Of a stretch of DNA of 64,000 nucleotides, positions 14,515 through 51,706 are shown one piece after another. The DNA lies in assembly GCA_016213135.1 (NCBI GenBank), contig JACRBQ010000069.1:1-64000 (forward strand). The letters are read 5' to 3'. The translations under genes and the position numbers were made by a program. Every line of letters starts with the position of its first letter. The first letter of the stretch is position 1. Origin of the DNA: Chloroflexota bacterium. GTDB taxonomy: Bacteria; Chloroflexota; Anaerolineae; Anaerolineales; VGOW01. The notes under the pieces are model-generated. The model saw nothing but the letters and a program-made list of their open reading frames with translations, had not been told where the DNA came from and made no database searches.

Positions 14515-14561
14515 GGGGCGATTCATGAATCGCTATGGTCGGGGGCGATTCATGAATCGCC
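14515..14561. repeat. Two REP-like palindromes (GGGCGATTCATGAATCGCCC type)
   Basis: Two copies of the palindrome GGCGATTCATGAATCGC (14515-14533 and 14541-14561) lie 8 bases apart. They occupy the gcvH-gcvPA gap, just ahead of the gcvPA start. They belong to the same family as the palindromes around and inside the RAYT gene at 27.7-28.5 kb and in the ABC gene at 51.6 kb. Confidence 0.9.
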
Positions 14562-27694: not shown

Positions 27695-27730
27695 GGGGCA
27701 ATTCATGAATTGCCCTTACGGAATTGCCCG
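27691..27730. repeat. REP-like palindrome upstream of RAYT
   Basis: GGGGCAATTCATGAATTGCC flanked by GTAG and CTTAC, followed by a half copy GAATTGCCCG. It overlaps the uvrA stop codon region and ends 12 bases before the RAYT start. Confidence 0.9.
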
Positions 27731-27741
27731 CTAGGAACATT

Positions 27742-28431
27742 ATGCCCTTCGATCCGCGCAGACACCATCGCCGCTCCATCCGCCTCAAGGGCTACGATTA
27801 CTCGCGAGCCGGGGCGTATTTCATCACCATCGTTGTCAAAAGGCGCGAATGCTTGTTTGGCGAGATCGCGGACGGCCAGATGCAATTGAACGAGTTTGGG
27901 CACATCGTTGAATCCATTTGGGACGAATTGCCGGCCCGTTACCCCGCGGTCGAATTGGATGCGTTTGTGATTATGCCAAACCACGTTCACGGCATCGTCG
28001 TGATTACCGTAGGGGCAATTCATGAATTGCCCCTACCCAACGAATTGCCCCTACCCAACGAATTGCCCCTACCCAACGAATTGCCCCTACCCAACGAATT
28101 GCCCCTACCCAACGAATTGCCCCTACCCAACGAATTGCCCCTACCCAATGAATTGCCCGTGCGGGATACCAACGACCCGGCCCAGCGTCGCAAAATGTGG
28201 TTACCTAAAATCGTGGGGTACTTCAAAATGAATGCCGCCAAACAGATCAACCTCTCGCGCCAAACACCCGGTCTCCCCCTTTGGCATCGCAACTACTACG
28301 AACACATCATTCGCAATGAGGCTGATCTCAAACGTATTCGCGATTACATTCAGGCAAACCCTGCACGCTGGATAGCGGATCAGCTACATCCTGGCGCGCC
28401 GCCCAACCGGTTCAACCAAGAAGACTCGTGA
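27742..28431 (+). CDS. REP-associated tyrosine transposase (RAYT, Y1_Tnp) containing its own palindrome and repeat array
   Basis: A 229-residue HUH/Y1 single-strand transposase. The N-terminal [28 protein letters not shown] is typical. The HUH motif is H81-V-H83 in [11 protein letters not shown], and the catalytic Tyr is probably Y202 in [13 protein letters not shown]. Between them, residues about 90-139 are encoded by a perfect 28-bp palindrome plus seven 18-bp units, giving GAIH followed by ELPLPN seven times. Without this segment the protein would be about 180 residues, the usual RAYT size. All catalytic parts remain in frame. Known RAYTs are single-copy domesticated transposases linked to REP spreading; activity here is not shown. 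Confidence 0.9.
28009..28164. repeat. In-frame palindrome plus seven 18-bp tandem units inside RAYT
   Basis: A perfect palindrome at 28009-28036 (core GGGGCAATTCATGAATTGCC) followed by units of GAATTGCCCCTACCCAAC starting at 28024, 28042, 28060, 28078, 28096, 28114 and 28132, and a partial eighth at 28150. Unit 7 ends in AAT instead of AAC. 18 bases equals 6 codons, so copy-number change preserves the frame. Confidence 0.95.
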
Positions 28432-28449: not shown

Positions 28450-28525
28450 CGGGCGCGTGGGGTAAGGGCGCGCAGGGTAGGGGCAATTCATGAATTGCCC
28501 TTACGCCCTTACGCCCATACGCGCC
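28450..28525. repeat. Long hairpin with REP-like palindrome downstream of RAYT
   Basis: The palindrome GGGGCAATTCATGAATTGCC (28480-28499) sits at the tip of a longer imperfect inverted repeat: GGCGCGTGGGGTAAGGGCG on the left and CGCCCTTACGCCCATACGCG on the right. Together with the copy at 27691 it brackets the RAYT gene. Confidence 0.8.
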
Positions 28526-42028: not shown

Positions 42029-43570
42029 GTGATCACGAACGTCTTAGTCGCCGACCCCAATCCCGGCTTTGCCGGCATGTTGCAGCAAGTGTTGGAAGAA
42101 ACGGGCCGCTTCAAGGCCACCGTCGTCGGCAGCGGCGGCGAGGCCATCAGCGCCGCCGGCCGCCACCCCTTCCACCTCGCCATAATCGACTCCGGTCTCG
42201 ACGACGCCGACCTGCGCTCCGTCATTGCCGGCCTGCGCAGCCAGAAGCCCGCGCTCGCCATCATGGTCATCCTCGGCTTCGGGCAGGAAAGTTTGGACGA
42301 CACCGGCCTCGACGTGCAGGGCACCCTCTCCAAGCCGTTTTACATCCCGGACCTTGAGCCGCAAATTGAAGAAGCGCTGACGCGCCCGGTAAACGGAGTG
42401 ACGCCCCCGCCGCGCCCCAAACCCGCCCCGCCGCCCGCGCCGATTCCCGACGCAGAACCGGCCCGGGCCGCCGCTCGGCCCCAGTCTGGCCGCGCGCCCG
42501 CACGCCCGACCCCGGCCCCCGCCCGGCAACCCGCGCCCCCCGCTCCATCGTGGCTCAACGACGTCAGCCGCGCCGCGCAATATCTCACCACCCTCACACT
42601 TCAGTCCGCCGCCGAAGCGGCATTGCTCATGCGCGGCCAGCAGCTCATCGCTTACGCCGGGCAGTTTGGCCGCGAGCAGGCCGAGGAACTCTCGCGCATC
42701 GTCGCCGACGCCTGGGCCAAAGACGGCGGCGGAGGCTCCGGCGCGCAAGTGCGCTTCATCCGCCTCTCCACCGGCGCAGACTTCCTCGTCTACTCCACCC
42801 TCGCCGCCGCCGACATCGTGCTCTCGATGGCCTTTCAGGCCGAAACCCCGTTGGGCATGATCCGCAAGCAGGCCAAGCAAGCCACCGAAGCCATCTTCAG
42901 AGTGCCGGCCACCGGCAACACGCCCGCCGCCGAGGCCGCTCCGCCGCCCGCCCCGCTCGTTGACACATTCACCTCCGATCCGCCGCCCGAACCGGCCCCC
43001 ACTGCCTCTCCTGAGGATTGGGCGCCACTGGCGGCCCGCCCTGCCGCCCCGTCCGACGCGGCCCCCATGGCTCCCATGCCGCCCGCGGCTCCGTCACCCG
43101 TGGTTCCCACGTCCCCATCGCCGCACGCGTTGCTGGGCATGCCGGCCGCCTTCCCCAACGCGCGCCGCACCCCGCATGGCCTGTACGCGCTGTCGTACAC
43201 TTACCTCATTATCCCCAAGTTCGCCAGCACACGCCTCAGTGGCGACCTCCAATCGCGGCTCGCAGAATGGATCAGCTTTCAGGCCCTGACCCACGACTGG
43301 CGCATCACCGGGCTGCACATCGAACCAGACCACCTCGAAATCAGCCTCGACTGCGCCCCCTCCGAAGCGCCGGAAAAAGTGGTCAAGGCCCTCATGCAGT
43401 ACACCGCCGAAAAAGCGCTGGCCGAGTTCCCGCGTCTCGCCGCCGAGCATTCCAAACGGGTGAGCAGCTTTTGGGCGCAGGGCTATTACGTGGTCGCCCC
43501 GGGCCGCCGCCTCTCCGCCGACGAAATTCGCGCCTTCATCGACTACCAACGGCAAGAGCAAAACGGGTAA
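42029..43570 (+). CDS. Receiver - Roadblock/LC7-like - inactive IS200-type (Y1) transposase-fold fusion
   Basis: A 513-residue protein. Residues 1 to about 120 are a response-regulator receiver: VLVADPNPGF, phospho-acceptor Asp54 in AIIDSGL, and Lys102 in LSKPFY. A Pro/Ala linker leads to about 175-290, WLNDVSRAAQYLTTLTLQSAAEAALLMRGQQLIAYAG, a Roadblock/LC7-like domain. After a second Pro-rich linker, residues 383-513 (YALSYTYLIIPKFASTRLSGDLQSRLAEW...DWRITGLHIEPDHLEISLD...VVKALMQYTAEKALAEFP...FWAQGYYVV...IRAFIDYQ) follow the IS200/IS605 TnpA order. The HUH motif is H435-L-E437, so the second His is lost, and the catalytic Tyr position is Phe503. Therefore it should be non-catalytic, possibly a nucleic-acid-binding signalling protein. 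Confidence 0.82.
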   Translation: MITNVLVADPNPGFAGMLQQVLEETGRFKATVVGSGGEAISAAGRHPFHLAIIDSGLDDADLRSVIAGLRSQKPALAIMVILGFGQESLDDTGLDVQGTLSKPFYIPDLEPQIEEALTRPVNGVTPPPRPKPAPPPAPIPDAEPARAAARPQSGRAPARPTPAPARQPAPPAPSWLNDVSRAAQYLTTLTLQSAAEAALLMRGQQLIAYAGQFGREQAEELSRIVADAWAKDGGGGSGAQVRFIRLSTGADFLVYSTLAAADIVLSMAFQAETPLGMIRKQAKQATEAIFRVPATGNTPAAEAAPPPAPLVDTFTSDPPPEPAPTASPEDWAPLAARPAAPSDAAPMAPMPPAAPSPVVPTSPSPHALLGMPAAFPNARRTPHGLYALSYTYLIIPKFASTRLSGDLQSRLAEWISFQALTHDWRITGLHIEPDHLEISLDCAPSEAPEKVVKALMQYTAEKALAEFPRLAAEHSKRVSSFWAQGYYVVAPGRRLSADEIRAFIDYQRQEQNG

Positions 43571-43616
43571 CGCCGGTTGTTGGTGGTTGGCCGCTGGTGA
43601 CTGGTAGCTACCCAAC

Positions 43617-49831: not shown

Positions 49832-51706
49832 ATGAAGATACTCATCCGACTATTCAAGAGCCTTTCGGGCTATGGCCGGCAACTGGCCGGGCTGGTGGCC
49901 TGTATTGTGCTCGTCACCGCCACTTCGTTGGTCACGCCGTCCATCATTCAGTACGTCATCGACGACGGCCTCACTAAAAACCACCCCCGCGCCATGCTCA
50001 CCGCCGGGCTGATCATTGTGGCCGTGGGCTTCGTGCGCGCCGTGTTTAATTTGGGCAAGCGCTACATTGGCGAATGGCTGGTCAACCGATCGGGGTACGA
50101 CTATCGCAACGCCCTGTACGAAAAAATCCAGCGCCTGTCGTTTGGCTACCACGACCACACCCAAACCGGGCAACTGATGAGCCGCTGCACCGAGGACGTG
50201 AGTTCGCTCTCGCGGTTTGTAGGCCAGGGCGCGGTGGATCTCGTCAACGTGATTCTGCTGTTTGCCGGGATTGTGTTCCTGCTGTTCCGGCAGAGCGCCA
50301 CGCTTACGCTCATCGGCCTGGGGCCGCTGCTGGTGCTGGCGACGCTCACGTATTACCTGGGCCACCTGCTCGGCCCGCTGTTCCTCAAAGTAGATCAGGC
50401 GCTCGGCGACCTCTCAGCGGCGTTGCAGGAAAACCTGAGCGGCGTGCAAGTGGTGCGCGCATTTGCCAGCGAGGATTTTGAAAAGGGCAAGTTCGACGCC
50501 GCCAATCGCAAGCTATACGGCGCGCGGGTGCACATCGTCACCACATGGGGCATGTTCCTGCCGGCGATGACGTGGCTCGTGATGGCCGCCACCGTGCTGG
50601 TGCTGTGGTTCGGCGGGCGCATGGTAATGGCCGGGACGCTCACGCTGGGCGAACTGGTGGCCTTCAACGCCTACCTGCTGTTGCTGGCCGCGCCCGTGCA
50701 GCAATTGGCCTTCGTGGTCAACTCGGCCGGCGAGGCCGTGGCCGGCGGCCAGCGCATCTTTGAAATTCTCGACTTGCCCGAAGAGATCAGCTCGCCGCCC
50801 CAGGCCCTGGCCCTGCCGCCCCTGACCGGGCGGGTGACATTTGAGAATGTGTCCTTCGCCTACCGCAGCGAACGGCGCGCGCTGCACGATGTGTCGTTCG
50901 AGGCCCTGCCCAACCAGATCATCGCCCTCATCGGCCCCACTGGCAGCGGCAAGACCAGCCTCGTCAACCTCATCCCCCGCTTTTACGACGCCACCACCGG
51001 CGCGGTGCGCGTGGACGGCTACGACGTGCGCGGCGTCAATCTCAAATCACTGCGTTCGCAGATCGGCCTCGTGCTGCAAACGTCGCTGCTGTTTTCCGTG
51101 TCCATCCGCGAAAACATTGCCTATGGCCGCGCCCAGGCCGCCGCCGACGAAGTGGTCGCCGCCGCCGCCAAAGCGGCCCGCGCCCACGACTTCATCGCCC
51201 GCCTGCCGGAGGGATACGACACGGTGGTGGGCGAGCGCGGCATCACTCTCTCCGGCGGCCAGCGCCAGCGTGTGGCCATTGCCCGCGCCCTGCTGCTCAA
51301 CCCGCGCATCCTCATCCTCGACGACTCCACCTCCAGCGTGGACACGCAGACGGAATACCTCATTCAGCAAGCGTTGGCCGAACTGATGCAAGGCCGCACC
51401 ACGTTTGTCATTGCCCAGCGCCTGTCCACCGTCAAACGCGCCGACCTGATTTTGGTGCTGGATGGCGGGCGCATCGTGCAGCGCGGCACGCACGACTCGC
51501 TCCTGGCCGAGGGTGGATTGTATAAAGAGATTTACGACTTGCAGTTGAAGGATCAAGACAAATTCCGCCGGGAAATGTTGTTTCTGGATGCCGCGCCCGA
51601 ACATGTAAGGGCGATTCATGAATCGCCCCTACAGCCCCACGCCGACCGGCCCGAACCACATGTGGCTCCGGACACCCAACCCCTGCGCCCCAGCGCAGTG
51701 AAATGA
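49832..51706 (+). CDS. ABC exporter subunit A (degenerate catalytic site)
   Basis: A 624-residue half-transporter: six membrane segments in the first about 330 residues, then the nucleotide-binding domain with GPTGSGKTS (Walker A), ITLSGGQRQR (signature) and LILDDSTSSVDT. The catalytic Glu after Walker B is Asp498, typical of the degenerate site in heterodimeric exporters. The last about 35 residues after AAPEH are encoded partly by a REP-like palindrome (51605-51632, in frame, VRAIHESPLQ). It is followed 10 nt later by the partner gene. Probably multidrug or lipid export; not established. Confidence 0.9.
   Translation: MKILIRLFKSLSGYGRQLAGLVACIVLVTATSLVTPSIIQYVIDDGLTKNHPRAMLTAGLIIVAVGFVRAVFNLGKRYIGEWLVNRSGYDYRNALYEKIQRLSFGYHDHTQTGQLMSRCTEDVSSLSRFVGQGAVDLVNVILLFAGIVFLLFRQSATLTLIGLGPLLVLATLTYYLGHLLGPLFLKVDQALGDLSAALQENLSGVQVVRAFASEDFEKGKFDAANRKLYGARVHIVTTWGMFLPAMTWLVMAATVLVLWFGGRMVMAGTLTLGELVAFNAYLLLLAAPVQQLAFVVNSAGEAVAGGQRIFEILDLPEEISSPPQALALPPLTGRVTFENVSFAYRSERRALHDVSFEALPNQIIALIGPTGSGKTSLVNLIPRFYDATTGAVRVDGYDVRGVNLKSLRSQIGLVLQTSLLFSVSIRENIAYGRAQAAADEVVAAAAKAARAHDFIARLPEGYDTVVGERGITLSGGQRQRVAIARALLLNPRILILDDSTSSVDTQTEYLIQQALAELMQGRTTFVIAQRLSTVKRADLILVLDGGRIVQRGTHDSLLAEGGLYKEIYDLQLKDQDKFRREMLFLDAAPEHVRAIHESPLQPHADRPEPHVAPDTQPLRPSAVK
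51605..51632. repeat. REP-like palindrome in frame at the ABC-A C-terminus
   Basis: Core GGGCGATTCATGAATCGCCC with GTAA and CTAC flanks, one mismatch short of a perfect 28-bp palindrome. It is read as VRAIHESPLQ, the counterpart of [10 protein letters not shown] in the RAYT. Confidence 0.9.

Follow-up and report, generated by a model that had tools for sequence, protein, structure and literature searches.

A conserved receiver-Roadblock protein encoded beside polA ends in a catalytically dead IS200-type transposase fold

Domain organization

What purpose could a transposase domain without its catalytic residues serve at the end of a signalling-type protein, and why does its gene lie directly in front of polA? 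Both questions are raised by a 64,000-nucleotide stretch of a Chloroflexota genome (contig JACRBQ010000069.1; referred to as the window), in which a coding frame from 42029 to 43567, with a stop codon extending to 43570, specifies a protein of 513 amino acids. An initial annotation had described it as a receiver, a Roadblock/LC7-like region and a dead IS200-type transposase (Y1) domain, the last being an exapted fold that serves as the output of a phospho-signalling protein and might bind the hairpins of a RAYT protein in the same genome. A PADLOC search gave no match for the 513-residue protein, and no description of the receiver-Roadblock-Y1 architecture was found in the open-access literature. 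For the coordinates of all features see Table 1.

Table 1. Features of the receiver-Roadblock-Y1 locus (window coordinates).
Feature	Position	Strand	Remarks
Whole receiver - Roadblock - dead Y1 gene	42029..43570	+	GTG start; 513 aa; start matches that of relatives (MITNVLVADPN / MTINVLIADPN)
Receiver-like domain, residues ~4-120	42038..42388	+	Pfam match below threshold; one acidic residue (D9) remaining of the usual pair
Receiver residues D54; K102	42188-42190; 42332-42334	+	
Roadblock/LC7 (MglB-like) domain, residues ~172-295	42542..42913	+	AlphaFold2 model, Foldseek, VIA
Pro/Ala-rich linker	42914..43150	+	Poorly conserved; ranks first in dN/dS among the four segments in most close pairs
Dead IS200-type Y1 domain, residues 386-507	43184..43549	+	Profile, PDB sequence matches, predicted fold
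Y1-domain residues H435; E437; F503	43331-43333; 43337-43339; 43535-43537	+	
46-base spacer preceding polA	43571..43616	+	Lacks the hairpin found in other families
polA, DNA polymerase I, 958 aa	43617..46493	+	Conserved neighbour; full-length polA relatives found alongside the gene

The Y1 domain

The Pfam family Y1_Tnp (PF01797) matches residues 386-507 with E = 1.1e-13 and 51.8 bits (cut-off 23), and the NCBIfam IS200 transposase model matches residues 380-505 (1.8e-15, slightly above its cut-off). PDB sequence matches of the protein are the TnpA proteins 2ec2, 2f4f and ISDra2. For residues 375-513, AlphaFold2 with 70 relatives as input gave a model that has a mean pLDDT of 88.6 and shows the Y1 fold. 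Compared with TnpA_IS200 structures, it gave a best Foldseek value of 3.5e-10 and a VIA Z-score of 17.1 with a deviation of 1.6 Å over 109 residues; the VIA scores range from 15 to 17 for TnpA_IS200, as opposed to 9.0 for the RAYT structure 4er8. The TnpA_IS200 likeness annotated for residues 383-513 is borne out by all of these comparisons.

Catalysis by TnpA requires two histidines (the HUH motif) and a tyrosine. In the window protein the HUH site reads P-D-H435-L436-E437 and the motif is therefore incomplete, with only the first histidine left. The column of the catalytic tyrosine is occupied by F503, while Q507 takes up its place in the Y---Q segment. Our alignment agrees with the annotation on both substitutions. 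It comprises 107 rows, 97 receiver-Roadblock-Y1 homologues with the same three-domain order and 10 Roadblock-Y1 proteins; because a few genomes are present in two collections, the rows correspond to about 102 distinct C-termini. HUH and Tyr occur together in none of them (0/107). The commonest active-site state is YUQ with the tyrosine retained (87 rows), and rows that keep the first histidine carry phenylalanine in the tyrosine column. Y435, Q437 and Y503 are present in most rows and R508 is invariant (107/107).

Residual activity would be conceivable if H435, E437 and Q507 held a metal ion and Y506 replaced the lost tyrosine: the window protein has both Y506 and Q507, and HUQ variants occur naturally in some Rep proteins. 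Y506, however, is present in only 9 of the 107 rows, most of which also lack the first histidine, and is therefore unlikely to be a substitute nucleophile. The single relative that retains HUH (L011) has Phe503 and no Tyr506. We consider residual catalysis very improbable.

With a net charge of -2 and a pI of 6.1 the Y1 domain of the window protein is not basic, and among 23 members 10 carry a negative net charge; the active ISDra2 transposase is also approximately neutral. The charge of the domain does not decide whether it binds DNA. The domain might act purely in dimerisation or protein docking, for instance with PolA or the sliding clamp as its partner, and have given up contact with nucleic acid. 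The replacement of HUH and Tyr throughout the family, the non-basic Y1 domain in the window's clade, the dimeric state of known TnpAs and the Roadblock fold as a dimeric scaffold are all compatible with this alternative, yet the former active-site region is conserved, through its mostly retained positions 435, 437 and 503 and the invariant R508, beyond what a pure dimer face would need. Docking alone is a serious but less probable explanation than a module that also binds nucleic acid.

Receiver and Roadblock domains

The Pfam model Response_reg scored 27.6 bits on the window receiver, which is below its gathering threshold of 30.2 bits; the match is weak but real, and 16 of 23 relatives are matched at E ≤ 0.01. 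The annotated Asp54 and Lys102 are both present, and they are kept in 94 and 89 of 97 rows, respectively, with Asp54 replaced by Glu in 3 of 97. At the position of the acidic pair we find D9-P10 in the window and mostly T-P in relatives, and several lineages have no receiver altogether. Because the acidic pair is mostly gone and the domain is absent in some lineages, the receiver may be unphosphorylated in most members. The label of a phospho-signalling protein is thus doubtful.

For residues 172-295 an AlphaFold2 model (pLDDT 83.6) is predicted to adopt the Roadblock fold, in accordance with the region at about 175-290 that had been read from the sequence. The best Foldseek hit is MglB (1.2e-7), and VIA gave Z-scores of 14.8 for p14/MP1 and 13.3 for MglB. 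The Pfam family Robl_LC7 has no match in the window protein and matches one of 23 members (0.0013). Like TnpA, MglB is a dimer, and the Roadblock fold is a dimeric scaffold.

Selection, origin and spread

In 14 close pairs the dN/dS ratio of the Y1 domain lies between 0.006 and 0.10, often below that of the receiver, as compared to 0.05-0.53 for the linker. In a phylogenetic tree that covers sampled active transposases, dead and active Y1 domains part with a support of 100/99 and a single change of state. This split fits a single, old domestication, as far as the sampled sequences go.

The three-domain protein is conserved across most families of its order, and among 151 genomes of the order 79 contain hits to a profile of the dead domain, mostly in open frames of 430-730 aa. 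The gene is single-copy in the window genome; a scan of genome contigs with the window's Y1 domain alone gave no match. The gene is absent from some families of the order and therefore not essential everywhere; many genomes of the order are without it and carry unrelated genes at the polA site. Nearly all remaining matches in a wider sample of the phylum are plain receivers or ordinary TnpAs. A genome from another family of the class (G291), however, encodes a receiver-Roadblock-Y1 protein of 673 aa that a single gene separates from the downstream polA, so that the fusion may predate the order.

Stand-alone dead Y1 proteins about 180-230 aa long were also observed away from polA in several genomes (L192:3826-4371, L193:3327-3884, L194:4118-4699, L195:137-769, L196:3722-4414 and L197:3983-4561). 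All six nest within the fused group and are therefore derived copies. Contig ends truncate a stand-alone Y1 protein in G007 (L217) and a Roadblock-only protein in G052 (L233), neither of which was counted as a variant.

In one genome of the same genus (G004, L013) the gene, adjoining polA, is interrupted by a stop or frameshift and falls into three frames, which reflects either a recent loss or an assembly error. Such a broken copy would be expected if the protein were a decaying relic or an assembly fusion. This explanation is refuted by the identical architecture in dozens of independent assemblies together with the low dN/dS, and its probability is negligible.

The dead Y1 domain on a receiver-Roadblock protein is hence confirmed as an observation. 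Profile matches, the predicted fold, the family-wide loss of catalytic residues, purifying selection and the tree all lend strong support to the reading of the C-terminus as a TnpA_IS200 fold that is exapted and catalytically dead.

Linkage to polA

The strongest clue, and a new lead missed by the initial annotation, is the neighbourhood of the gene. In 21 out of 21 flanked neighbourhoods polA follows directly downstream on the same strand; the next commonest neighbour is found in 9 of 21. We further analyzed 80 named loci, labelled Anaerolineales, Anaerolineae or Chloroflexi, of which 78 could be tested (L133 and L135 end before polA could be seen). polA lies downstream in 74 of these, within ~0.6 kb in 72 cases and at 1.1-1.3 kb in two, and the gene is away from polA in the remaining four (L104, L129, L134 and L152).

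Versions of the protein with fewer domains adjoin polA as well: receiver-Roadblock proteins lacking Y1 (L202, L205-L208), Roadblock-Y1 proteins lacking the receiver (L209, L210) and, in another family of the class, Roadblock-only proteins (L268, L269). What stays constant is therefore the combination of Roadblock and polA, and the receiver and the dead transposase are parts added to, or lost from, this unit.

Palindromes and the hairpin before polA

The window genome does contain an intact RAYT, a 204-aa protein with complete HFH and Y---NP motifs on contig C85 (L002:1477-2091). It also contains palindromes around ATTCATGAAT, often in the form TAGGGGC..GCCCCTA, which in the window are located at 14518-14560, 27698-27713, 28015-28030, 28483-28498 and 51611-51626. 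The 10-base core has 7 matches in the window with at most one mismatch (0.8 expected), and the 16-base core, GCRATTCATGAATYGC, occurs in 16 exact copies genome-wide, of which the window contig carries 6. Since none of the 16 lies on the RAYT contig, their assignment as the RAYT's own palindromes is unsupported. No REP palindromes flank the gene, the nearest ATTCATGAAT copy on the window contig (51611) being more than 8 kb away, and none is found at polA. The proposal that the dead domain binds RAYT hairpins is not supported, because its fold is much closer to TnpA_IS200 than to RAYT and the palindromes are missing from the RAYT contig. Despite the number of exact copies, binding of the dispersed palindromes by this domain is highly improbable.

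One family of the order has a different hairpin, with the consensus AAAGCGCAGAGTATAATCAACTCTGCGCTTTATTTTTT, in the interval that separates the gene from polA. It consists of GCGCAGAG-TATAAT-N-CTCTGCGC followed by a T-tract and is found at L118:7739-7775, L130:7656-7692 and ~50 other loci. An inverted repeat with its core stem is found in this interval at 52 of 80 loci and occurs once elsewhere in 922 kb (L140), there also just before polA. Of 201 genomes, 12 contain the exact form with the TATAAT loop, each in a single copy at the gene-polA locus, and the bare stem is found elsewhere at chance level. Its pairing is 98% with 18 compensatory cells, a number reached in 0 of 500 shuffles. A search of Rfam yielded no confident match.

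Because TnpA folds bind hairpins, such a conserved element could suggest that the protein regulates polA expression, for example via a hairpin in the polA leader. The hairpin is, however, missing from the gap in the window, it accompanies polA also at loci where the gene is displaced or an additional gene stands in between (L291, L293, L294), and with its A-tract and T-tract and the lack of a -35 signal it resembles an intrinsic terminator whose sequence is unusually fixed. These features point to a polA element of terminator type rather than to a partner of the dead domain. A link between the two is possible, and a regulatory role of the protein in polA expression is unlikely.

Proposed function

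Based on these results we propose, with a probability of roughly 0.5, that the dead Y1 domain serves a scaffold linked to Pol I as a module that has no catalytic activity and probably binds nucleic acid. The protein would be a stably inherited accessory gene product of the polA locus. Early in the lineage, a Roadblock protein, in most cases preceded by a receiver, would have captured an IS200-type TnpA domain at its end in a single event. The captured domain would then have lost its HUH/Tyr chemistry and would now be retained for its fold. The Roadblock and Y1 folds may form a dimeric scaffold, as expected from MglB and TnpA, and the cleft of the Y1 domain could be a non-cutting binding site for nucleic acid in single-stranded or hairpin form. 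The scaffold might thereby place or tune Pol I at structured single-stranded DNA, e.g. in lagging-strand or repair gaps.

Adjacency of the gene to polA is no proof of a physical partnership. By analogy, a role at Pol I is supported by the contacts of TnpA_IS608 with DnaN and fork-like DNA (PMC6006769) and by the interaction of REPs, which are associated with RAYTs, with Pol I in E. coli (PMC2817692 citing Gilson 1990). More tentatively, the protein could be a lineage-wide Pol I accessory factor, in which a receiver-Roadblock-TnpA scaffold reads structured single-stranded DNA and controls Pol I. It would then be a non-catalytic counterpart of RAYT, its replication role having been adopted by the host. 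More broadly, the case would illustrate how replication or repair can take up a TnpA fold as a component that does not cut, and would allow the role of contacts between TnpA and replication to be tested in a system free of transposition.

Comparison with known systems

To our knowledge, the host-kept Y1 transposases described to date, the RAYTs, retain the residues needed for cutting. In the present family only the fold is retained: catalysis is lost throughout, selection is strong, and the domain is joined to signalling-type domains and linked with polA throughout the order.

The domain resembles the TnpA proteins of IS200/IS605 elements (IS608, ISDra2, 2ec2) in its Y1 fold, its Pfam and NCBIfam matches and the position of the Y---Q segment in the last helix (F503---Q507). 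It differs from them in lacking the pair of HUH and catalytic Tyr, in its fused domains and in occurring nearly always as one copy per genome. Instead of being mobile and multicopy, the gene has one copy in its own genome and occupies the same site by polA across the order. With RAYT/TnpA_REP proteins it shares a Y1 domain retained by the host and not by an element. RAYTs, however, keep HUH and Tyr (Y---NP) together with REP partners, whereas the window protein has HLE and F503---Q507 and no link to REPs, and its fold match to RAYT is the weaker one. The Roadblock region is similar to MglB and other Roadblock/LC7 proteins in its predicted fold, but its sequence in the window protein is too distant for Pfam, and it is fused between a receiver and a Y1 domain. 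Like the receivers of response regulators, the N-terminal domain keeps D54 and K102; unlike them, it has mostly Thr-Pro in place of the acidic pair, is connected to no known output domain and has been lost in some lineages.
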